From Rikenellaceae bacterium (lineage in GTDB: Bacteria; Bacteroidota; Bacteroidia; Bacteroidales; Rikenellaceae), in contig CABJAJ010000002.1 of assembly GCA_902363575.1 (NCBI GenBank), positions 614,154-678,153 of the forward strand: 64,000 bases of DNA, written 5' to 3'. How positions within the stretch are numbered: the first letter of the stretch is position 1; each line of letters begins with the position of its first letter. The notes beneath the pieces were generated by a model. It was given only the letters and a program-made list of their open reading frames with translations, had not been told where the DNA came from and made no database searches. The position numbers and the translations under genes are program-made. This document shows positions 10,085-22,200 of the stretch, in pieces.

Positions 10085-10324
10085 ACCTCGCAGCGCCCTC
10101 ACCCGCTGCTCACGCGACGGACTTCCGCCCTCAATTCAGGTAATTATATCCGTAAGAGCAAGCGTTTTCGGGCGTCGGGCAAAGATTTGCCGACAAACTT
10201 TATCCGGATTGGGATCGGCTTGAACGACCGGGCGAGTCGTGGGCATGAGGAGAGCAGTAGATGTTTCCAAAGTAGAAAAATTCCGCCGAAATAGTAAATT
10301 CCGGCGGAAGAATTGACGCAATGG
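10085..10324 (-). pseudogene. decayed Rhs cassette junction (third copy)
   Basis: Positions 10137-10324 are the third copy of the junction repeat that follows each immunity gene in the array, including its hairpin. It continues into Rhs core sequence reading PENACSYGYNY, then degenerates: the codons equivalent to LNLVEEVRRN contain an in-frame TGA and another TGA follows soon after, while DNA resemblance (GCGACGGACTTCC) persists to about 10114. No toxin tip is recognisable beyond. It looks like the stub of a further cassette that has been lost or decayed. Confidence 0.75.
10276..10309 (-). terminator. terminator in junction copy 3
   Basis: TTCCGCCG (10281-10288) pairs with CGGCGGAA (10302-10309); on the minus strand the stem is followed by TTTTT. 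It ends the transcript of the distal cassette 24 bp after its last gene. Confidence 0.75.
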
Positions 10325-10332
10325 AAAGATTG

Positions 10333-10956
10333 TTAATTGGAATCCTCTGATGGATTCTCCGGATATAATTCTATCTCGAATTGTAAGGACATACCCTCTA
10401 CGGGCTCATATCTTCTAAAAGTAATCTCTCGATTACCTCTATTATAATAGTCCGAATAGGGTTGGGCATACAACCAGTTGATAAACTTCTCTGTCAGTTC
10501 ATACCATAAAAGAATTTTTTGAAATGGTTGCTGTTCTAAAGAATCAATAAGATCTAATTGACTTGCTACTATATCATTCCCGTCATATAAATTAAAAATA
10601 TCAATATATATCGGTTTGATCATTTTAGCGGTATCGCTCAGATCTCCATCGAAAAATAACTCGCAATCTAATTCAACGGTCATCGCCGAGTCAATAAACG
10701 GAACGTACATTTTCAGCGGTTCGTATTTCGAGTCACCCTCCTTTAACGGGATGAGGCGGGGTACATAATTAATGTCTCGACCAATCAATTCTATTCCGTG
10801 AGGGTAGCAATAAAACACTCCGGGATCAGAATTTTTGGTCTCTTTGTGAATGCGCACCGAGTCCGTTTCCCGGATCTGGGCATAACTATTTCGCATCATT
10901 CCGCTGTGCAGAATTATAAGCGAAAATAAAATCGTTAAAATAGTTGTACGTCTCAT
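10333..10956 (-). CDS. presumptive immunity protein of distal Rhs cassette (exported)
   Basis: A 207-residue protein of unknown family. The start at 10956 is chosen because it gives a clear signal peptide (MRRTTILTILFSLIILHSG, probable cleavage after SYAQ) and because its ATG overlaps the TAA of the toxin cassette as TAATG. Position directly behind a Rhs C-terminal module, tight coupling and AT-rich composition are the hallmarks of an immunity gene; no sequence motif identifies it. The export signal suggests that the cognate toxin is neutralised in the periplasm or at the outer membrane. It is separated from the next junction by 9 bp. Confidence 0.7.
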   Translation of the reverse strand: MRRTTILTILFSLIILHSGMMRNSYAQIRETDSVRIHKETKNSDPGVFYCYPHGIELIGRDINYVPRLIPLKEGDSKYEPLKMYVPFIDSAMTVELDCELFFDGDLSDTAKMIKPIYIDIFNLYDGNDIVASQLDLIDSLEQQPFQKILLWYELTEKFINWLYAQPYSDYYNRGNREITFRRYEPVEGMSLQFEIELYPENPSEDSN

Positions 10957-12134
10957 TAGTATTTCATTGGAGTCCAATATTTTTGTAGCATAGACTGAAG
11001 TTGTTTCGTTTTCGGATGAGCAGGATAATACTGAAGCTCATTATAAATTCCGGAAAGGTTAGCTTGCGATCCCTTTAGAAAATTTCTAACCGCTATTTGC
11101 ATATTCGTCCACGAATAATCCTCTATTAAAAGGGCATTAAATGCAGCTTCCCATTTGCGTCCTGCCAGGTTGTCATTTCCCATAGCACTGGATAAAGCCC
11201 CTAAAAAACTGTTTTGCAATATCCCACAACAGAACACATATGCTTCTACTTCATTGAAGATTGAAGCGCCGAACTGTCCGTTCATATGCTGAATCGCGTG
11301 GAATAATTCATGCGCTAAATAGGCAACAGTTAAGCAATTAATTTCTTTAATAAGTCCCGCTAAAAGGGCTCCTCTATAAGCTCCTGGTGGACTGAAAGAT
11401 GCTCCTGCCGCGGCATTCCCTAGAGTTGAACCATTTATTTCATAGATAAATTTTGTAGAACTCGTCAAATCATTCAATACCTTATAACCACCATTTTCAT
11501 ATATTGTATTAATTATCCTTATGATATTTGAAATTTGTGGGTTAGTGCCTGTATAGGTCATCCCTGGGATATAATTCAGTCGTTCATTTCCAAAATACAG
11601 GACAAGTATCCTTCCGTCGGGATCAACATAAAGCATCGGATTATTGTAGCAAAAGTGATAAGGATTCATAAACTGATACTTGGGGTCCTGAACCAGCCAT
11701 CTGCCCAGATTAGGATCGTACATCCGTGCACCGTAGTCCAGAAGATTGACCGCTCCGGTTGCCTGCCACTCCTTCCCGTTGAATAGGTATCGGTTGCCGG
11801 AGATCGGCAGATCGGCGGCGTCCCACCTCTTGCCGAAAGGATAGTAGTTGATCTTTTCCAATGCGCGGCCGTTCTGATCGGCGACCACGCGAACGCTACC
11901 CAGGTAGTCGGTCACATGGTACTGCACCTCGCTCCCGGCGCTCGTGCAGACGATACGGCCGCCGGTGAAACCCACGCTTTCGGGCGCATAGATGGTGCCC
12001 CGTTTGCTGTATATCAAAGAACCAAAATAGAGGAACCCGCAGCCCATCGCATCGCTCACCTCCAGCTTGGTGCCGTCGGCAAGGTACTTATATCGTGCGG
12101 AGACCGATCCGTTGCGACGGACTTCCTCCACCAA
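10956..12134 (-). CDS. silent Rhs C-terminal cassette with metallopeptidase tip (distal)
   Basis: An Rhs fragment: residues 1-150 are the end of the Rhs core, including the repeat-associated signature YLGSVRVVADQNGRALEKIN and GARMYDPNLGRWLVQDP; the remaining ~240 residues are a unique tip. The tip has a zinc-metallopeptidase motif HELFH (275-279) and a downstream NEVEAY (294-299) able to give the third, glutamate ligand, so a gluzincin-like peptidase is likely. There is no ATG: the frame can only begin at TTG (12134), and a conserved in-frame TAA lies 21 codons further upstream. No signal peptide and no clear promoter are present. It is best read as a silent donor cassette for the full rhs gene; expression on its own is doubtful. 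The tip is markedly AT-rich relative to the core. Confidence 0.8.
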   Translation of the reverse strand: MVEEVRRNGSVSARYKYLADGTKLEVSDAMGCGFLYFGSLIYSKRGTIYAPESVGFTGGRIVCTSAGSEVQYHVTDYLGSVRVVADQNGRALEKINYYPFGKRWDAADLPISGNRYLFNGKEWQATGAVNLLDYGARMYDPNLGRWLVQDPKYQFMNPYHFCYNNPMLYVDPDGRILVLYFGNERLNYIPGMTYTGTNPQISNIIRIINTIYENGGYKVLNDLTSSTKFIYEINGSTLGNAAAGASFSPPGAYRGALLAGLIKEINCLTVAYLAHELFHAIQHMNGQFGASIFNEVEAYVFCCGILQNSFLGALSSAMGNDNLAGRKWEAAFNALLIEDYSWTNMQIAVRNFLKGSQANLSGIYNELQYYPAHPKTKQLQSMLQKYWTPMKY

Positions 12135-12178
12135 ATTTAGGTAATTATATCCGTAAGAGCAAGCGTTTTCGGGCGTCG
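11710..12178 (-). repeat. Rhs recombination arm, distal copy (identical to 15959-16427)
   Basis: Base-by-base reading shows these 469 bp to be identical to 15959-16427 in the full rhs gene. The adjacent cassette's arm (about 13790-14256) matches the same stretch with some 20 or more differences. The identity stops at the base where junction sequence replaces Rhs coding sequence. Confidence 0.93.
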
Positions 12179-12324
12179 GGCAAAGATTTGCTGACGAACT
12201 TTAACCGGGTTGGGAGTCGGCTTGAACGACCGGGCGAGTCGTGGGCATTGGTTTGGCGAGGTATTCTTCTAAATAGAAACTTCCGCCGAAATAGCAAATT
12301 TCGGCGGAAGAATTGACGTAATGG
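12138..12324 (-). repeat. cassette junction repeat, copy 2
   Basis: Second copy of the ~190-bp junction (others 10137-10324 and 14215-14402). It carries the Rhs codons PENACSYGYNYLNL, a conserved in-frame TAA upstream of them, the block around GGCTTGAACGACCGGGCGAG, and a hairpin whose stem here extends to 12 perfect base pairs (12281-12292 with 12298-12309). This copy diverges from the other two between 12246 and 12280 and has a weaker T-run. Confidence 0.85.
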
Positions 12325-12377
12325 CTATGATATTAGGAAGGCTGTCTGGATTACAGATTAACTGCGGTGTAAACAAT

Positions 12378-12401
12378 ACTCCCGGTCAAGCGACCGGGAG
12401 T
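12378..12401 (-). terminator. terminator after the proximal cassette's immunity gene
   Basis: A perfect 10-bp stem ACTCCCGGTC/GACCGGGAGT with a 4-nt loop, 22 bp beyond the stop at 12423, followed on the minus strand by ATTGTTT. Confidence 0.65.
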
Positions 12402-12422
12402 AACATAATCTACAATTTCATT

Positions 12423-13010
12423 CTAATCGCCATCATAGATCCATAAAGTTGTTGGAAACTGGATTTGTCCGTCATGGATAATTATTCTATATGCACGGGA
12501 ATAAGGAGTATCGAAAATAATTCCGCGTCTGAGCGTCTCTTCTATCATTGCTTCAATATCACCAGTATAAACTAAACTTTCCGCGTATTTTTCTCGAATT
12601 GAAGCTTCCGTGTATTTTGAGGTAAACAACTCTTTATTGTAACCATCATATTCATACTTCAAATACGACTCCCTGGAATATGCACTGATATCAAATATGT
12701 TTTTCAGATCAGGAACAGCATGCTTAAAAACGAATAATAGCGTGTCATTTTGAAGGTTATACCTGAATCCTTTATCAACTAAGGCTTCTATAATGATCTT
12801 ATAATCTCCATTATGTAATTCTTGGCTTTCATCCGTCCTCCATTTATTAATTTCAATCTTATATTTCCCCTTCCTGTTCTTTACGCAACAATGAAATTGT
12901 TTACCTTCCACATCCGTTCTTGCTGCCAACCAAAGTTCATATAGCGTTTGTTGGGCTTGAATGCTGGTGCAACAAAAAATGCACGAAATTAGGATCAGAA
13001 TTTTTTTCAT
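12423..13010 (-). CDS. presumptive immunity protein of proximal Rhs cassette (exported)
   Basis: A 195-residue protein of unknown family with a signal peptide (MKKILILISCIFCCTSIQAQ). Its ATG overlaps the TGA of the preceding toxin cassette (ATGA, 13007-13010). The mature part is polar, rich in Lys, Glu and Tyr, and AT-rich at the DNA level. By position it should neutralise the M91-like metallopeptidase tip; export suggests that this occurs outside the cytoplasm. It is not visibly similar to the other two presumptive immunity proteins, as expected for specific pairs. Confidence 0.7.
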   Translation of the reverse strand: MKKILILISCIFCCTSIQAQQTLYELWLAARTDVEGKQFHCCVKNRKGKYKIEINKWRTDESQELHNGDYKIIIEALVDKGFRYNLQNDTLLFVFKHAVPDLKNIFDISAYSRESYLKYEYDGYNKELFTSKYTEASIREKYAESLVYTGDIEAMIEETLRRGIIFDTPYSRAYRIIIHDGQIQFPTTLWIYDGD

Positions 13011-14209
13011 AATGAATCTTTTGTTATGATAGAGGGTTGTTTGATAATAAATTGATACCTCCGATTTGGATTTAATATGTTATAGCTCGTTTTCTCGTTT
13101 CTGTTTATATAAAGGGCTCGTAGTTGTGAGTCAATAAGCAGACTTCCATTTCCGATTTCATGAAAATAATGTGTCCTGAGAGGGAGATTATGTTCAGCAC
13201 GAACTTTATTTTCCCAATGTGTTGCATATATTTCATCATAAGTAGCATAACTTTCGGATTTAGCATCTTTATATCTGATCCACTTATCTCCGTCTCTTAA
13301 TCCATCCAAATCGTGTAGCGCATGTGCAAGTTCATGCGCCAGACTTATAAATGGAATGTAATCATCTACGCCGTTTGTTGTTACTGCACAATACTTATTA
13401 TGCACTCTGTTAGGCAGCCAATATACTGTTTTTTCCAAATGTTCGTAATAAGACTTGTTGCTGAATTTTATTTCAATTTCTTTTTCTGAAGCTACTATCC
13501 GACATAAAAGCTGAAATCCAGCAGGGCCGCCTGTGATTAATTGCATTAAATTTGTTTGCAGTTTTAATATTTCCGGATCATTACCATCGTACAGTTGATC
13601 CCTCGAATCGTAAAATCCCCATTTATTATTTACTACTCTCCATTCATAATATCTTCCTTTATCTGCCGCCCAGACCTTGATTTTCCTTCCATCCGGATCG
13701 ATAAAACGCACAGGATTGTTGTAACAGAAAGCATACGGATTTGCGGATTGATACTCCGGGTCCTGCACGAACCAACGGCCCAGATTCGCATCGTACATCC
13801 GTGCACCGTAGTCCAGGAGATTGACCGCTCCGGTTGCCTGCCACTCCTTGCCGTTGAATAGGTATCGGTTATTGGTGAGTTGTTGATCGGCGGCGTCCCA
13901 CCTCTTGCCGAAAGGATAGTAGTTGATCTTTTCCAATGCGCGGCCGTCCTGATCGGCGACCACGCGAACGCTACCCAGGTAGTCGGTCACATGGTACAAC
14001 ACCTCGCTCCCGGCGCTTGTGCAGACGATGCGGCCGCCGGTGAAACCCACGCTTTCGGGCGCATAGATGGTGCCCCGTTTGCTGTATATCAAAGAACCGA
14101 AATAGAGGAACCCGCAGCCCATCGCATCGCTCACCTCCAGCTTGGTGCCGTCGGCAAGGTACTTATACCGTGCGGCGACCGATCCGTTGCGACGGACTTC
14201 CTCCACCAA
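13007..14209 (-). CDS. silent Rhs C-terminal cassette with M91-like metallopeptidase tip (proximal)
   Basis: Residues 1-152 repeat the Rhs core end (DYLGSVRVVADQDGRALEK, GARMYDANLGRWFVQDP); the tip of about 240 residues is unique. It contains HELAHALHDLDG with the zinc motif HELAH at 292-296 and, about 35 residues on, HWENKVRAEHNLPLRTHY. This pairing of HExxHxxxxxxG with ENxxRxExxLPxR resembles peptidase family M91 (NleD-like effectors, often Rhs-associated). As in the distal cassette there is no ATG, only TTG at 14209, with an in-frame TAA a few codons before the homology ends. No promoter or signal peptide is seen. It is probably a silent donor of an alternative toxin tip. Confidence 0.8.
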   Translation of the reverse strand: MVEEVRRNGSVAARYKYLADGTKLEVSDAMGCGFLYFGSLIYSKRGTIYAPESVGFTGGRIVCTSAGSEVLYHVTDYLGSVRVVADQDGRALEKINYYPFGKRWDAADQQLTNNRYLFNGKEWQATGAVNLLDYGARMYDANLGRWFVQDPEYQSANPYAFCYNNPVRFIDPDGRKIKVWAADKGRYYEWRVVNNKWGFYDSRDQLYDGNDPEILKLQTNLMQLITGGPAGFQLLCRIVASEKEIEIKFSNKSYYEHLEKTVYWLPNRVHNKYCAVTTNGVDDYIPFISLAHELAHALHDLDGLRDGDKWIRYKDAKSESYATYDEIYATHWENKVRAEHNLPLRTHYFHEIGNGSLLIDSQLRALYINRNEKTSYNILNPNRRYQFIIKQPSIITKDSL

Positions 14210-14214
14210 ATTTA

Positions 14215-14402
14215 GGTAATTATATCCGTAAGAGCAAGCGTTTTCGGGCGTTGGGCAAAGATTTGCCGACGAACTTTAACCGGGTTGGGAGTCGGCTTGA
14301 ACGACCGGGCGAGTCGTGGGCATGAGGAGAGCAGTAGGTGTTTCCAAAAACAGAAAAATTCCGCCGAAATAGTAAATTCCGGCGGAAGAATTGACGTAAT
14401 GG
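14215..14402 (-). repeat. cassette junction repeat, copy 1
   Basis: First copy of the junction, between the immunity gene of the full rhs and the proximal cassette. It is very close to copy 3, including GTGGGCATGAGGAGAGCAGTA, which copy 2 lacks. It carries the hairpin at 14359-14387 and the conserved in-frame TAA. The stretch 14403-14509 between this junction and the immunity gene is AT-rich and holds no feature I can support. Confidence 0.85.
14354..14387 (-). terminator. terminator in junction copy 1
   Basis: TTCCGCCG (14359-14366) pairs with CGGCGGAA (14380-14387), followed on the minus strand by TTTTTCTG. It should end the main rhs operon transcript before the silent cassettes. Confidence 0.78.
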
Positions 14403-14509
14403 CAGCAAATATGAATCTGAATATACGGTTTACATTGGTAGCTGAACTTGCAGATGTATATACATAACTCACTGATTTGATGGGAGTAAAAGATTTATTA
14501 AGGAGAAAC

Positions 14510-15178
14510 CTATATTAGTCGTTTATTCGCACGAATAGTTATGCTATTTGATTTATGTAAATTTGTTTTTAAGGACGAATAAAAACTTAAATCGCCACCA
14601 AATTCGGTTTGCATTGAATCAATCAATTGCATTATTTCCGCATCAGTTCTCAAATTGAGCTCGTTAATTAGCAGATCATGGATAATAAAACTGTAATCAG
14701 TCCCCATTGTATTAGAACTACTATTTATCTGATGGATTAAATTTGATTTATTCTCATTCAGGGTTTGATTTATAAGTTCTCTATTAGCAATATAAAATTT
14801 CCGCTTGTCTTTATCCGTTTCATTCATTTCAATGGCCTTGAATAAATTTAAATACATTTGACGTTGATACGGGTATAGGAAATTACTTTGATCTAATTTC
14901 TCGACAAATGAGAATCCCTCTTCCCACTTTCTTTCTGCCAACAATAATACAATTTTGACATCTACAAGAGCCCAGGTATATTCCCCTTCTTGAGCTTCCA
15001 CAGCCTTATCAACGTATTTTAACGCTTTTTTTAAGGTTGAATTCTTCGGGTTCTGTTCATATTTACCACAGAGCCGCCATGCTTCGGATGTATAATAAGT
15101 TGCATCTTTCTCCCTTGGCGTGCAGCCGATGGTGAGGCTGAAAACAAGTAGAAAATTTACTAATCTTTTACAAGTCAT
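14510..15178 (-). CDS. presumptive immunity lipoprotein of the expressed Rhs toxin
   Basis: A 222-residue predicted lipoprotein; the start at 15178 gives the signal MTCKRLVNFLLVFSLTIGC with lipobox TIGC. An earlier in-frame ATG (15223) would bury the signal and overlap rhs, so it is not preferred. The mature part is helical with TPR-like spacing (ALKYVDKAVEAQEGEYTWAL; a second similar segment follows). It begins 14 bp after the rhs stop, unlike the overlapping cassette pairs. The place directly behind the toxin tip and the AT-rich composition argue for immunity; the function is not otherwise shown. Confidence 0.68.
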   Translation of the reverse strand: MTCKRLVNFLLVFSLTIGCTPREKDATYYTSEAWRLCGKYEQNPKNSTLKKALKYVDKAVEAQEGEYTWALVDVKIVLLLAERKWEEGFSFVEKLDQSNFLYPYQRQMYLNLFKAIEMNETDKDKRKFYIANRELINQTLNENKSNLIHQINSSSNTMGTDYSFIIHDLLINELNLRTDAEIMQLIDSMQTEFGGDLSFYSSLKTNLHKSNSITIRANKRLI

Positions 15179-15192
15179 AGAATTTAAATAAT

Positions 15193-18100
15193 TTAATAAA
15201 TAACCGGATTCTGAAATACCCATGTAAAAATTATTGGTTTAACAGCAAAAGGATTAAGAAAACCTCTTGTAACAGTAACATATGCATAAGAACTATTATA
15301 TCCAAAGATTGGAAAAGTAATCGTCGCTTTACTGAACGTTTTTGTCGGTGAAATCTCTGTTGCAGGTATCAATATACTTCCGTCGAGATATAGCCCCTTA
15401 CTACCTATAAATGAAGATGTAGGTTGCAGTACAACACGATAAGATTTACTTCCATACGAAAATGTTAAATATGCCATCCCACGTAAAAAAGCTCCTGTAG
15501 TACTATGAAAATCATATCCAAAATTACCCCCTATTTTTATCCCATTAAAAGTTATTCCCGACTGATTGATTACACTTCTATTTTCAGGAGATATAGAAAT
15601 ATCTGGAGTAATAGAAATTAATCCAAATCCAGTAATCAACATTTGGCTTCTGGACTTATCATCCTCCGTTAGCCAACCATAGAATGATCTATATGCATAT
15701 TGTCTGAAACTTTTTGGGAAATATATACCTAACGCTCTCAAAATATCATCAATACTTGGTCCTAAATAAGAATAACCTGGAGGTGTAGTCTCCGGTGAGA
15801 TAGCATTATCTATCCATAAAATTTCTCCACTATCATTATCTTGAACCCAATCTGTCATCATTCCATTAGGGTCAATCTTATTAACAGGGTCAGATGCGCA
15901 AAATGTATACGGATTGTGCATTTGATACATAGGGTCCTGCACGAACCAACGGCCCAGGTTAGGATCGTACATCCGTGCACCGTAGTCCAGAAGATTGACC
16001 GCTCCGGTTGCCTGCCACTCCTTCCCGTTGAATAGGTATCGGTTGCCGGAGATCGGCAGATCGGCGGCGTCCCACCTCTTGCCGAAAGGATAGTAGTTGA
16101 TCTTTTCCAATGCGCGGCCGTTCTGATCGGCGACCACGCGAACGCTACCCAGGTAGTCGGTCACATGGTACTGCACCTCGCTCCCGGCGCTCGTGCAGAC
16201 GATACGGCCGCCGGTGAAACCCACGCTTTCGGGCGCATAGATGGTGCCCCGTTTGCTGTATATCAAAGAACCAAAATAGAGGAACCCGCAGCCCATCGCA
16301 TCGCTCACCTCCAGCTTGGTGCCGTCGGCAAGGTACTTATATCGTGCGGAGACCGATCCGTTGCGACGGACTTCCTCCACCAAATTTAGGTAATTATATC
16401 CGTAAGAGCAAGCGTTTTCGGGCGTCGATATGACATTTCCGTTCAAATCATAGCCATAGGTTGTCGTACGGCCGTTGTCGGTGGTCGAGATCAGGCGGTT
16501 TCCGTCGTAAACATACTGAATATCGTTTACGATCCGCTTATTACCGTAGCGGGTCAGCGACAGTATATTGTCGTTGTGGTCGTATTTCAGATCCATTTCC
16601 GCATACGATGCGACCTGCAACTGTCCGTTACGATACGTTCTCGCATCCTGCAACTGCCCCATCGGGGTGTAGCGGTATCCATAGCTGGTAAAATAGCCGT
16701 CGCCGGCAAAGGACCAGGAACATTCTCCGATTTGCCCGGCATAGTTTTTCGGGATGCCGGCGAGCGTCGGTTTGTCGGTTGCGAGGGTCATGCGGAAAAG
16801 CTCGTTCTGCTGTTCGGTCGTCCGTCCGGCTATGTCGTACTTGTACGAGGTGTTGATTTTCCCTGCCCCCTGGATCATCGTGGAAACCCGTCCGAGGGCA
16901 TCGTACCGGTAGCTCACTTTGGCAATAGGGCCGTTACCGAGGCGTTTCTGCTCGGTGAGCACGCGGCCGAAGTCGTCGTAAGTCATGCGCGTTTGCAGGA
17001 TGTCGGGAGACACGCCCGGTCCCGTTGCGCGGGATTCATAGCTGATGAGCTGGTTGCCCGCATCATCGTATCTATTCGAGAGGCGGTTTATGCCGCCCAG
17101 GTGGTTGCGGATGACGGTCTGAACGAGCAATCCGTCTTTGTCGTAGTAGAAAGCCCGCTCGATGTAGGCGGTACTGTCTGTGAGGACATCGGGCAGGACG
17201 GCGACTTTCTCGTAGGTTTTCAATCCGGTGTTGTTGGCATAGAGTTCGTCCGCCGTTACCATGCCGGAAACGGAGACGAATGCCAACGAGGAGGGAATGG
17301 CAAACGGCCGGTAGGATTTCTTCATTCCCCCTGCCGGATCGGATACCCAGTCATAATCCTCGTATCCGTCGTAATGTACCTGCGTGAGCAAGACATCTAC
17401 CTGATAGAGCTCTTCGACGATTTTGTGGAGTTCCGCTCCGCACTTGTCCCGAAACAGGGTCTGAAGGAAAGAAGCCGGCACAGGCCTCATCAAAAGGTGT
17501 GTTTCGAGTATGCGGTCGAAGTCGTCGTATTTGACATAGAACCATAACTGCGACTTGCGCTGGTTGCCGTCCTGTGTGAGAACTGCCCGGCCGCGGCAGT
17601 CGTAGACACGCTCGATGCGATTGCGTCCCGGTCGTAACGTCAGGATTTCATTGCCCCGCGTGTCGTAACGGTGATAGGTGCAATACTTCCCGAGTTCCGA
17701 GGGCGAATAGCGGGCGCCGACCGTTGTGATGAGCTTGTCCTGGATCGAGGGAATCTCGTAACGCAGTTTCCCGAAATCGTCATAGACGTAATAGGCGAAA
17801 TGCTCGCTGCGATCGTTCACTCGAACCTCCTTGGCCACAAGGTGTTCGTCCTGATCGTAGTATTCCAGCACCTTCACACTTAGCGTGTCGGTCGTTTGGC
17901 TGGTCTTTTCCCGCACCAGCAGCCGGCTCGGCGGGTAGAACCCCTTATAGACCAGCATGGAATCGTCCGCAATCCGGTAGTTTTTCACCTTGTCCGTTTT
18001 CGCCGGCTGTATGCCGATACCGGCAGCCGCAGGCGCTGCCAACGGATAAGGCGTTACGGAGATCTGATTGTGGTAGTTCAACCGGTAGTCGAAGCGGATG

Positions 18101-18627
18101 GGATGGCCTTTCGTGGAGGCGAGGCTGTGGTTGAAGCCGGGCTCGTCGGTAAATTTCACCAGATTGAGCGGCGTGTTGTCGTACACGGTTCGCGTGGCGG
18201 CAAACCGGGCATCGGGATCGTTGTCGAGCAACTGCCGGTAGAACCTCACGCATCGCGCATTGGCAGTGGCGAGGGTCATGCCTATGCTGTCGGGGACGTA
18301 GGGAAGGTAGGCGATCGAATCGCGGCCCATGCAGTCGAGCGTCCGTTCCGTTACGATATTGCCGCCGGCGGGCGAAGCTGCGACAACGACGGTTTTCACT
18401 TCGCGGCCCAGGCCGTCGTAATGATGTTCGGTGGTGGTGTATTTGTCGCCCTGATAGGTGCGCTCCAGGACCAGTTTCCCCTCGATGGTATTGGATACGG
18501 GATACGGAATAACCTGTCCGGGATAGCCCGGCAGCATCGTGCCGACGCCTTGCGGCTCCTGGGCGGCAAGGGGCGTGACGGCGGCAAGCAGATAGGCCGC
18601 TATGACGGTCAAAAGGTTCGTTTTCAT
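15193..18627 (-). CDS. secreted Rhs/YD-repeat protein with variable C-terminal tip
   Basis: An 1144-residue Rhs protein with a Sec signal peptide (LLTVIAAYLLAAVTPLAAQ). Many YD repeats run through residues ~90-870 (YDCRGRAVLTQDGNQ, YDDAGNQLISYESR, YDDFGRVLTEQ, YDIAGRTTEQQN), building the Rhs shell, and the core ends with DYLGSVRVVADQNGRALEK and GARMYDPNLGRWFVQDP. The C-terminal ~235 residues (from about DPNGMMTDWVQDNDSGE) are an AT-rich, beta-rich tip of unknown activity with no HExxH or other toxin motif. Its ATG overlaps the stop of the upstream partner gene (ATGA, 18624-18627). Residues ~734-890 are the arm shared with the silent cassettes. Probably a contact-dependent or envelope toxin; the delivery route is not evident. 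Confidence 0.88.
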   Translation of the reverse strand: MKTNLLTVIAAYLLAAVTPLAAQEPQGVGTMLPGYPGQVIPYPVSNTIEGKLVLERTYQGDKYTTTEHHYDGLGREVKTVVVAASPAGGNIVTERTLDCMGRDSIAYLPYVPDSIGMTLATANARCVRFYRQLLDNDPDARFAATRTVYDNTPLNLVKFTDEPGFNHSLASTKGHPIRFDYRLNYHNQISVTPYPLAAPAAAGIGIQPAKTDKVKNYRIADDSMLVYKGFYPPSRLLVREKTSQTTDTLSVKVLEYYDQDEHLVAKEVRVNDRSEHFAYYVYDDFGKLRYEIPSIQDKLITTVGARYSPSELGKYCTYHRYDTRGNEILTLRPGRNRIERVYDCRGRAVLTQDGNQRKSQLWFYVKYDDFDRILETHLLMRPVPASFLQTLFRDKCGAELHKIVEELYQVDVLLTQVHYDGYEDYDWVSDPAGGMKKSYRPFAIPSSLAFVSVSGMVTADELYANNTGLKTYEKVAVLPDVLTDSTAYIERAFYYDKDGLLVQTVIRNHLGGINRLSNRYDDAGNQLISYESRATGPGVSPDILQTRMTYDDFGRVLTEQKRLGNGPIAKVSYRYDALGRVSTMIQGAGKINTSYKYDIAGRTTEQQNELFRMTLATDKPTLAGIPKNYAGQIGECSWSFAGDGYFTSYGYRYTPMGQLQDARTYRNGQLQVASYAEMDLKYDHNDNILSLTRYGNKRIVNDIQYVYDGNRLISTTDNGRTTTYGYDLNGNVISTPENACSYGYNYLNLVEEVRRNGSVSARYKYLADGTKLEVSDAMGCGFLYFGSLIYSKRGTIYAPESVGFTGGRIVCTSAGSEVQYHVTDYLGSVRVVADQNGRALEKINYYPFGKRWDAADLPISGNRYLFNGKEWQATGAVNLLDYGARMYDPNLGRWFVQDPMYQMHNPYTFCASDPVNKIDPNGMMTDWVQDNDSGEILWIDNAISPETTPPGYSYLGPSIDDILRALGIYFPKSFRQYAYRSFYGWLTEDDKSRSQMLITGFGLISITPDISISPENRSVINQSGITFNGIKIGGNFGYDFHSTTGAFLRGMAYLTFSYGSKSYRVVLQPTSSFIGSKGLYLDGSILIPATEISPTKTFSKATITFPIFGYNSSYAYVTVTRGFLNPFAVKPIIFTWVFQNPVIY
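15959..16427 (-). repeat. Rhs recombination arm in the full-length gene
   Basis: This stretch codes for the last part of the Rhs core in the full gene and is identical to 11710-12178 in the distal silent cassette. Upstream of 16427 the full gene continues in Rhs coding sequence, while the cassettes switch to junction sequence. Homology to the cassettes fades just below 15959, where the tips begin. Confidence 0.93.
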
Positions 18628-21600
18628 AATGCAGGGATCGTGATGTTGGGGTTGTAGTGATCGTAGGAGTAGGTTTTGAGCGGCTGTCGTTCGTTGTCCA
18701 GCACGCGGGTCGGCAGTCCGAAGCCGTTGTATTCGTAGTAGAGCGAGCGGCCGCGTGTGTCGGTTTCCGAGATCGTCCCCAGCCCGGGAACAGAAACCTG
18801 GGATTTCAGCGTCGCATTCGGCGGCAGCAGGCTTACGTCATCGACAGCGACCGCACCCGCAGGGAACAAGACCGTATAGTTATCCATCGTGTCGGTAACG
18901 GTAATCCGGGACCGATGCTGGAACCACCGGTCGCTGTCATTGGTCAGATACCAGTAGGACAGGATGTAAGTTCCGGGCGTGAAATTCGATACGGGAATGG
19001 TCAGGGGCGTGGTTATGCGGCCCCGTGTGCCCGACTTGGCAGGTCCCAGATCCGGCCAGACCCAGGAGCAGAAATCGTCCCGCTCGAAGTCGTCGAACCA
19101 CACCTCATTTACTCTTTGCGTCGCTTCGGGAGCATACCGTGCATTGGCGACATAGGCCAGCGGCATGCTTCGCCCCGGATGATAGACGATGCTCATAGGC
19201 ATGTTATCCGCTTTGTGGTAGCTGGTCATATTCCCCGCGGCGTCGTAATCGTCGAAACTGATGGCCTCTTTGTAGCGTTCGTCGTATTGCAGCTCCCCCC
19301 GGAAGGTGCGGGACGAAATCCGGAAAGAGGCGGAATCGATGCCCTCGTAAGGGGCTTCGAGTTGAAGAGCGGAGGCAAGGAGAAACCGGTCGGGAGTAGC
19401 ACGATAGACGGTCAGAGCTGCGCTTTTGACCTTTCCGTTTCTGTAAACTATTTGCTCGATGGGAATGTACTTGTATTTCGGTTGCCTGATTTCGAAATTG
19501 ATTTTGTTGTAATATTCGTAATTGTATTTGGTATAGGCGGTGGTGCGGGTGCCGTCGGCATATCGCTTTATTTCGTGCGTAGGCAGATGTCGGTCGTTAT
19601 ACAGGTAGTCCGTGCGGCAGTAAAGGTTTGTCTTGCCGGAATATTCGATCCTGGTTTTCGGCAGGACGGGACAGCTTATATGAAAGTACCGGGCAAGGCA
19701 GGTTCTGTTGTGCCCTTCGACCCTGCTGTGGTACGGCACGAGACCCGGAATACGGACTGCGGCAGCCGTATCGATCAGGTATTCGTAGGATGTACGTTTC
19801 ACGATATTGCCATCCGCATCGAACGCTGTTTCCTGCTGCAAGAGGTTGCGGCCCCAGGCCCGGATGGTTTTCGGCAGGTCCTGGTCGTCCTCGAAACCCA
19901 GATAACGAACCGTATCCTCCGCAATGAGGTATTTTTCGGGATACAGATCATCGTACTTTTCGAGCGGAACGTAATCGTATTTGACCGAGGATCCGTTGGG
20001 AAGGCGCTCCGTGACGGACGAATAGACCACGGGCGAACCATAGTAGTCGTTAATTGTGCTCTGGCAATGGGAGGATATTATATAATATATATTATCGCCC
20101 TCCACTGTATTGCCATAACCCATCTTTTCATAGTTGAAGCGCTCGGCATAGACCACGCCGCCCTCGTAGGTATATCGGTATTCGGCCGGCTTGGAGCCGG
20201 AAGCATCCCGTTCGAGGATCCGCTCAACGCGCAGACCGCCCCCGATCATCATCATCGGCTGATCCCGCAGTTTACCTTGATGCAATTCGTAAACGATCTC
20301 CTTGCTGCCGCCGCCCGGATAGTGAATACCTTTGAGGCTCTGTGCTCGCGTACGCTCCAGGTCGGATGCCCTGCCGGTGCCGAAATCCGGATAGATTCCA
20401 CCGATCGGAACGAACGGACAACCGATCAGATCCTCCCCGTCCTGGTTCCAGTAGCCCCAATGGTCGAACCCCTTGTGCATGTGTCCGGGCATTACAGGGT
20501 CCTCGAAATAGACAAACGAGGCGATCGGCCGCTTGTGTCCTGCTTTGGCCTGCTCGTAAACCTGCTTGAGACGGTGGTTTCCATTGGGAAACGTGTCGCG
20601 TTCAAAGCAGATCGTTTTCTGTGTTTCACCCATACAACCTATTTCAATACGGCTGAGACGGGTATTTGAATAATGATGGTATTTATCAATATCGCGGTCA
20701 TAAACAAACTCGATTTTCTGATCCTTATAGGTAATTTCTCTCGGGTATAAACTATTGTGTGTTTCCATACGGTAGAAATCACCGTACATAAAATCTTCTT
20801 TGATATATGTTAATGTATTGCCGGACTTCCTGACCATAGAAGTACCATAGTAGGACATGCAACTGCTGCCCGCCGAATCGTATTTGATTTCGACCGTATT
20901 GCCATTTGGGTAGATGATCTCATTCAGATACCATTCACTGTAAGTTTTCCATGTATTTTTCGCAAAATAGTCGTTTTTCGATATAAAGGAATGGTTCTCT
21001 GTGCTTTCTCTGAACTTATATTGCACACCTTGAGGATCTAATATTGTAAAACTATTCTTTAAGGTGTCGATTTGAATTTCCACCGGCTGGTAAGGGCAGG
21101 TATGAGCTACAAGGTCGGGGTCGAGGACGAAACTGCCCGACATACCGGGAAGATCGAACGTGTAGAGGTCCGGCTGGCTGTCGTAATCGAATTGATGGAA
21201 TTTCTTATAATAGGTGTCGCTTTTCCATATCGACATATCTTCATAAGTATCCTTCAAATTGGGGAAATTATCGATGTTGCCCTGTATCACCCGGGTTATT
21301 CTTCCGCCGGCCGACAAATCCCAGCCCAAACCTATCGGCGTATGGATATCGCTGAGCTTGACTCCCGACCCGGAGTAATTCAGGGTGATCGGCAGTTTCC
21401 CACCGTCGGTTTGCAGTTCATACAGGGGAATCCGGACATGTAAGGTGCCGGTGTATTTATCGACCGTGACATCGGCATTGTTTATCGTGATGTAGGGTTC
21501 GGTGGAGATCGCGGCCTCGTTGTTCATCCAGGCCAGATCGGGCAGCTCCGGATCGTCGGCGTAGAGGGAGCTCTTGTTTACGGCCGGAGGCGTGGTTGCC

Positions 21601-21671
21601 TCGGGTTCTTGCGCATGGGAAAGTGTGCAGGAGATGCCGCATAACAGCAGCATGGTGATAAAAATTCGCAT
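18624..21671 (-). CDS. secreted Rhs-type partner protein
   Basis: A 1015-residue exported protein (signal MRIFITMLLLCGISCTLSHA). Its N-terminal third has the pattern LPITLNYSGSGVKL followed by PIGLGWDLSAGGRITRVIQG, common at the start of Bacteroidota Rhs-like proteins and reminiscent of SpvB/TcB N-termini. Further on there are degenerate YD-type repeats and, near the C-terminus, a carbohydrate-binding-like beta region (about residues 850-960, SNFTPGTYILSYWYLTNDSD). The last 55 residues resume YD repeats (ETDTRGRSLYYEYNGFGLPT), so it flows naturally into the downstream Rhs protein. First gene of the operon; the ATGA overlap suggests that the two proteins act as a complex, comparable to split TcB/TcC shells (inference). 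Confidence 0.83.
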   Translation of the reverse strand: MRIFITMLLLCGISCTLSHAQEPEATTPPAVNKSSLYADDPELPDLAWMNNEAAISTEPYITINNADVTVDKYTGTLHVRIPLYELQTDGGKLPITLNYSGSGVKLSDIHTPIGLGWDLSAGGRITRVIQGNIDNFPNLKDTYEDMSIWKSDTYYKKFHQFDYDSQPDLYTFDLPGMSGSFVLDPDLVAHTCPYQPVEIQIDTLKNSFTILDPQGVQYKFRESTENHSFISKNDYFAKNTWKTYSEWYLNEIIYPNGNTVEIKYDSAGSSCMSYYGTSMVRKSGNTLTYIKEDFMYGDFYRMETHNSLYPREITYKDQKIEFVYDRDIDKYHHYSNTRLSRIEIGCMGETQKTICFERDTFPNGNHRLKQVYEQAKAGHKRPIASFVYFEDPVMPGHMHKGFDHWGYWNQDGEDLIGCPFVPIGGIYPDFGTGRASDLERTRAQSLKGIHYPGGGSKEIVYELHQGKLRDQPMMMIGGGLRVERILERDASGSKPAEYRYTYEGGVVYAERFNYEKMGYGNTVEGDNIYYIISSHCQSTINDYYGSPVVYSSVTERLPNGSSVKYDYVPLEKYDDLYPEKYLIAEDTVRYLGFEDDQDLPKTIRAWGRNLLQQETAFDADGNIVKRTSYEYLIDTAAAVRIPGLVPYHSRVEGHNRTCLARYFHISCPVLPKTRIEYSGKTNLYCRTDYLYNDRHLPTHEIKRYADGTRTTAYTKYNYEYYNKINFEIRQPKYKYIPIEQIVYRNGKVKSAALTVYRATPDRFLLASALQLEAPYEGIDSASFRISSRTFRGELQYDERYKEAISFDDYDAAGNMTSYHKADNMPMSIVYHPGRSMPLAYVANARYAPEATQRVNEVWFDDFERDDFCSWVWPDLGPAKSGTRGRITTPLTIPVSNFTPGTYILSYWYLTNDSDRWFQHRSRITVTDTMDNYTVLFPAGAVAVDDVSLLPPNATLKSQVSVPGLGTISETDTRGRSLYYEYNGFGLPTRVLDNERQPLKTYSYDHYNPNITIPAL

Positions 21672-22137: not shown

Positions 22138-22173
22138 AAAAAAATTCCGCCGTCCCACATGGGAACGGCGGAA
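22138..22173 (-). terminator. terminator of the POT transporter gene
   Basis: TTCCGCCGT pairs with ACGGCGGAA, the stem being extended by CCC/GGG around an ACAT loop (22145-22173). On the minus strand it is followed by seven T residues. It lies 28 bp beyond the stop codon. Confidence 0.8.
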
Positions 22174-22200
22174 TAAGGGAATCCGAAGACAACCCAGGCC

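Follow-up and report, generated by a model that had tools for sequence, protein, structure and literature searches.

Arrays of orphan rhs C-terminal regions (orphan rhs-CT) were reported by Jackson 2009 (PMC2935791), who proposed that circles carrying a core and a tip are excised and inserted by homologous recombination. Koskiniemi 2014 (PMC3967940) presented evidence for recombination between the main and orphan rhs regions in evolved Salmonella lines and found orphan tips also on full-length genes of other strains, while Zhang 2012 described how standalone toxin cassettes take part in recombination and listed numerous Bacteroidetes toxin families. Here we analyze an rhs locus in a 64-kb stretch of DNA from a Rikenellaceae bacterium (contig CABJAJ010000002.1), hereafter the window. 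The locus is entirely on the minus strand. A full rhs gene, the head, ends in a tip (T1) and is followed by the gene of an exported partner, and behind it stand two modules, each consisting of a copy of the end of the rhs core, a different tip (T2 or T3), and the gene of another exported partner. We consider it likely that the locus is a C-terminal displacement (orphan rhs-CT) array that serves as a reservoir for tip swapping. An earlier note on this DNA had described the full gene with its two start-less modules and had read them as such a reservoir; the reading frames, the Pfam matches and the core identities bear out the description, and the anatomy, together with tips that recur both on long or full cores and on orphans, supports the reading.

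The head encodes a protein of 1144 amino acids with an N-terminal signal sequence (read by eye), a DUF6443 domain and RHS repeats (Pfam), the Rhs_assc_core region, and a variable C-terminal tip, as expected of an Rhs polymorphic toxin; a Pfam scan of this protein did not find PAAR. The open reading frames (ORFs) of the modules (14209..13007, 400 amino acids, and 12134..10956, 392 amino acids) contain no internal stop. Their most 5' in-frame starts are TTG and GTG codons within the core, and the preceding junction contributes an in-frame TAA. This agrees with the earlier claim that the modules have neither an ATG nor a signal peptide; they thus lack the usual translation start and export signal, like orphan rhs-CT elements. 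Over 441 bp, the core of module 3 is identical to that of the head, silent sites included, whereas the intervening module 2 has 19 positions at which its core departs from both. The codon differences between the head and module 2 (7 silent and 9 replacement, 5 of the 9 in one block) say little about selection. Homology to the head starts at one place, within two bases, in module 2, in module 3 and in a remnant at the end of the array, where only approximately 64 bases of an altered, decayed core start follow the third junction. The core fragments here thus share one border instead of varying in length as they do in Serratia, a trait that is not essential to orphan rhs-CT, and near-identical cores carry different tips, T2 and T3 being distantly alike. 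The guanine-cytosine (GC) content drops from 57% in the core to 35% to 39% in the tips. A tblastn search of the window with the head found no Rhs core outside the array, and PADLOC and Rfam scans gave no match.

Features of the rhs array and the first gene of its likely operon, in order of transcription (positions in the window)
Feature	Position	Strand	Basis
Gene of a 1015-aa protein, signal sequence by eye, first gene of the likely operon	18624..21671	-	ORF
Complete rhs gene at the head of the array, with DUF6443, RHS repeats, core and tip T1	15193..18627	-	ORF, Pfam
Stretch of the head core repeated in the modules	15955..16427	-	Core alignment
Tip T1, 253 aa including the common first ~35 residues, 35% GC	15193..15954	-	
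T1 partner, likely lipoprotein, signal and Cys by eye	14510..15178	-	ORF; no Pfam match
Junction 1: terminator-like hairpin and spacer with in-frame TAA	14243..14410	-	
Module 2 core, 422/441 identical to head	13781..14251	-	Alignment
Tip T2, Peptidase_M91-like, HELAH	13007..13780	-	PF14891, E 2.5e-8, above cut-off
T2 partner, signal sequence by eye, start overlaps T2 stop	12423..13010	-	ORF
Junction 2	12168..12328	-	Alignment, hairpin
Module 3 core, 441/441 identical to head	11706..12178	-	Alignment
Tip T3 with a metallopeptidase-like HELFH motif; no Pfam family for the tip	10956..11705	-	
T3 partner, signal sequence by eye, start overlaps T3 stop	10333..10956	-	ORF
Junction 3 (about 10168-10328) and ~64 bases of altered core start, end of array	10114..10328	-	

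If stored tips can reach the head, the same tip should be found on heads and on orphans. We compared related proteins from clustered databases, in which member counts are not strain counts, so that all cross-strain evidence is at the protein level. Of 7993 candidates scored in a search with head residues 1–910, 421 proteins reached E<=1e-50, of which the best 120 were listed; the first ten show identities of 58% to 99%. The protein P0001 is the product of a full-length gene (core 97% identical) that carries another M91-like tip instead of T1, and this tip is found also on the orphan module P0126 (100% over 215 amino acids). The tip stored here as T3 is present on the long core of P0010, which starts at an internal Met and lacks the N-terminal half (95% over 218 amino acids, or 96% over 249 with the common first residues). 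The check proposed in the earlier note, to look for a silent tip on the main gene elsewhere, is thus positive at the protein level. In addition, T1 itself (100%) occurs on the core of P0007, T2-like tips occur on the long cores of P0009 and P0124, and a common short tip is shared by the long core of P0122 and the orphans P0121 and P0123 (100% over 42 amino acids). This M91-like tip is cut short at 73 amino acids on the long core and the orphans alike, and, judging from the sequences, it seems to have moved or to have been copied in its decayed state. Long or full cores of this close group therefore carry five tips (T1 and those of P0001, P0009, P0010, and P0122), two of them on full-length genes (the window head and P0001), and at the protein level the same tip is attached in one sequence and dissociated in another.

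The same comparison gave hints on the history and the host of the locus. The core of P0007 has no N-terminal half, and its first residues match the window at about 22055-22020 (~22.05 kb), which here is intergenic and upstream of the operon; P0007 thus seems to come from the same locus with a deletion, which would imply that the 1015-amino acid protein gene and the N-terminal half of Rhs (~4.7 kb) were lost in other strains. The same deletion may also be present in P0009, P0010 and P0122. T3 is 89% identical in P0132 on a core that is only 72% identical, and the tip of P0005 is 88% identical to that of P0139 on a core of 59% identity, contrasts that point to transfer across lineages. For both P0131 (M91 tip) and P0132 (T3 tip), the longest contig given has 6203 bases; perhaps the two lie on one contig, which would place a similar array in a sister lineage. 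The closest named relatives among the matches listed are Alistipes (P0006 and P0011), and P0128, named Alistipes putredinis, is 98% identical over 90% of the module-core query; the host is probably an Alistipes near A. putredinis. Plasmid records contained only distant Rhs proteins (23% to 29% among 15 rows listed of 247 records), and phage records gave one distant match of 25%. This phage match, L002 (MT837108.1, 25% over 75% of the query), is an unannotated 7.7-kb human-faeces 'phage' that may be a bacterial contig, and L001 (NZ_OY725916.1), a Bacteroides finegoldii 'plasmid' with metG, an acetate-CoA ligase gene and an rhs gene after a large hypothetical gene, may be a chromosome fragment.

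To look for signs of recombination, we tabulated core and tip identity for 630 protein pairs, which are not independent, taking core identity from the last 100 residues and leaving out P0140 (no border) and any pair in which the tip comparison covered less than 40 residues. The cores were at least 90% identical in 129 pairs, and in 84 of these the tips were less than 35% identical. A four-gamete test on 14 cores, three of them from the window (P0128 was excluded as too short), used 10 informative sites and detected four gametes at 29 of the 45 site pairs; core variants are shuffled. A 5-residue block (107–111) fails the test against sites 10, 48, 69, and 86, and the P0010 core is a mosaic that resembles module 2 at sites 10, 107–111, and 139 and module 3 at sites 69 and 86. 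Within the window, the junction behind T1 (junction 1) is nearer to that behind T3 (152/168 positions identical) than to that behind T2 (136/168), junctions 2 and 3 being identical at 131/163. This closeness, like the identity of the two cores in the head and module 3, is what a recent change of place by T1 or T3, or a conversion of the head and module 3, would lead one to expect.

We therefore propose that the head would produce one secreted Rhs protein bearing the current toxin tip, and that displaced or waiting cassettes of tip and partner would be stored behind it, each preceded by a duplicate of the final ~470 bp of the core. Homologous recombination between the head core and a module core, or alternatively replacement bounded by core at one end and junction at the other, would bring a stored cassette to the head and send the previous one to the array, so that each exchanged tip would travel with its antidote gene. 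In this scheme homologous recombination is the presumed route and the modules are presumably silent as toxins; from what is known of the families, we infer that the tips are antibacterial toxins and the partners immunity proteins. The first ~35 residues beyond the core are alike in all 3 tips, and T2 and T3 are 29% identical over 163 amino acids including the HExxH region. The earlier description of each tip as unique therefore holds for T1, which shows no further likeness to either, but not for these shared parts. T2 and T3 may be distant metallopeptidase-like kin at best, only T2 having a peptidase-family match (M91-like), and the partners of T2 and T3 are unlike each other. Pfam and domain scans gave no family match for T1 and none above cut-off for the 3 partners. 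The structure model of T1 is beta-rich and of low confidence (mean predicted local distance difference test score, pLDDT, 63.7) and had no PDB match at E<=0.001, and we claim no fold for it; the other four models reached pLDDT values of 29 to 43, the T3 model failing at 42.9, and the PDB sequence matches of the T3 set fall where the Rhs core ends and in the initial residues of the tip. Upstream, the gene of the 1015-amino acid protein overlaps the rhs start by 4 nt. This protein has no Pfam family (a weak YD repeat only) and no credible PDB relative, and it may be a delivery or shell partner coupled to Rhs.

A junction made of a 12- to 13-bp hairpin and a spacer of ~110 nt follows each of the 3 partner genes. 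The 61-nt pieces around hairpins 1 to 3 fold at -20, -22.4, and -20 kcal/mol (z -4.5, -4.4, and -4.9), and all three hairpins are terminator-like. The earlier claim of repeated junctions carrying terminators stands in this respect, but such sites are not in excess in the region (12 versus a shuffle mean of 12.5). A terminator-like hairpin with nearly the same stem arms (TTCCGCCG / CGGCGGAA) is located at 22144-22174, upstream of the operon, and a common local type of terminator may be the origin of the junction hairpin.

Hairpins at both ends of each module would also suit independent transcription units: transcription would begin at a promoter located at the start of the core and stop at the junction terminator, and each unit would produce a short GTG- or TTG-initiated protein or only the partner, as a stack of antidotes. 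The first codons of each module contain CTTG-N20-TAAATTTG, 1 mismatch in 10 from the Bacteroides-type promoter consensus, and to this extent the earlier statement that there is no recognisable promoter does not hold. However, the match proves nothing, since these bases also belong to the coding sequence of the head and may only mirror conserved YLNL codons. Sites with at most 1 mismatch number 9 against a Markov mean of 2.7, but 3 of the 9 are this one repeated element, and the 48 sites with at most 2 mismatches fall inside the control range (mean 36.5, 26–53). Gene callers start 8 of the 53 proteins from the module-core search at the residue matching the module GTG codon (P0121, P0123, P0125, P0126, P0127, P0130, P0131, and P0132); in the head, the nearest in-frame starts upstream of this GTG lie 1 codon (TTG), 22 codons (TTG), and 72 codons (ATG) away. 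Orphans with this predicted start occur in two core lineages that are 72% to 76% identical to each other, which would fit one common border in both, an indirect indication as the start is the gene caller's choice. The modules also have no signal peptide, and we consider their being independent units rather unlikely, although compatible with a reservoir. Each unit has a fixed 5' border and a conserved junction, and such a junction also follows the last unit; these features could instead mark a recombinase site at the junction or core start, as in integrons or rAID arrays. We regard such a site-specific system as very improbable: there is no recombinase among the 8 window genes besides the locus that were scanned with Pfam, the border is simply the end of head homology, and mosaic breakpoints lie within the core.

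The modules could also be relics of former rhs ends, produced by tandem duplication, decaying without selection and rarely or never reused. They have no usual start codon or signal, the last core is decayed, and the head differs from module 2 at 9 replacement and 7 silent codons (the replacements including a block of five). Nevertheless, both module ORFs are open over 392 and 400 codons, the same tips occur on heads and modules, and the cores of the head and module 3 are identical at silent sites also, so that this explanation appears unlikely. Several observations count against the array as a working reservoir, and some of them favor decay. The long heads P0007, P0009, P0010, and P0122 are without the N-terminal half and may be dead genes whose products are not secreted, and the end of the tip common to P0121–P0123 after 73 amino acids is a sign of decay. 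A search with the T3 tip of P0010 (proteins of ~388-1235 amino acids) returned only P0010 and P0132, with no full-length T3 gene, and scans of genome contigs and viral contigs gave no relative, leaving us with no context DNA of relatives. Near-identical 470-bp repeats invite short-read misassembly that could possibly join wrong tips: P0128 stops inside the repeat, and the last residues of P0124 look like translated sequencing-adapter sequence, an assembly-quality warning.

If the array is a reservoir for tip swapping, switching of tips by homologous recombination would extend from Proteobacteria to a common human gut genus, and an Rhs of another secretion type would join the tip-switching systems. 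The locus would be a natural place to read switching in metagenomes, where one head would be joined to several tips, and the array would predict which antidotes a strain carries. A more specific form, which we regard as doubtful, is silent-cassette switching in Alistipes: as every cassette, that of the head included, has a core of ~470 bp before it and a junction and core after it, one gene-conversion tract would swap tip and antidote while array length is kept, promoters at the module starts would keep unused antidotes expressed, and the secreted Rhs would need no type VI secretion system (T6SS). In PMC4714493, none of nine Alistipes genomes, among them that of A. putredinis, is listed with a T6SS.

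In its order and content, the locus resembles the orphan rhs-CT/rhsI loci of Serratia, E. coli, and other Enterobacteriaceae (PMC2935791), in which the full gene comes first and is followed by near-identical partial cores with unrelated low-GC tips, mostly without a start. In Serratia the core fragments vary in length and 2 of 3 are degenerate, whereas here both modules are open, share one border, and have a hairpin/spacer junction after each partner. The Salmonella rhs-main and rhs-orphan share a 522-bp core that is 95% identical, and the orphan likewise has no start and no export signals (PMC3967940); there, one orphan is present and export is thought to occur by the T6SS, while here there are two orphans behind a DUF6443 Rhs with a signal sequence. 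The rhs loci of Snodgrassella alvi (PMC5727410) have the same order of genes but are T6SS-linked, and many of their orphans are transcribed. The rAID arrays of gut Bacteroidales (PMC12247911) are co-oriented and have conserved intergenic motifs in the same bacterial order, but they consist of orphan antidote genes with a predicted tyrosine recombinase, an enzyme absent from the 8 Pfam-scanned window genes, whereas the array described here holds tip/partner pairs behind an rhs head. The earlier note overstated the novelty of the arrangement, since full rhs genes with orphan tip/immunity modules, often start-less, have been described for Serratia, E. coli, Salmonella, and Snodgrassella. In searches of an open-access library, we found no paper on such an array in Alistipes. 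This kind of locus is thus known from Enterobacteriaceae and Snodgrassella, and it is the host group, the fixed borders, and the two-sided homology of the cassettes that look new.

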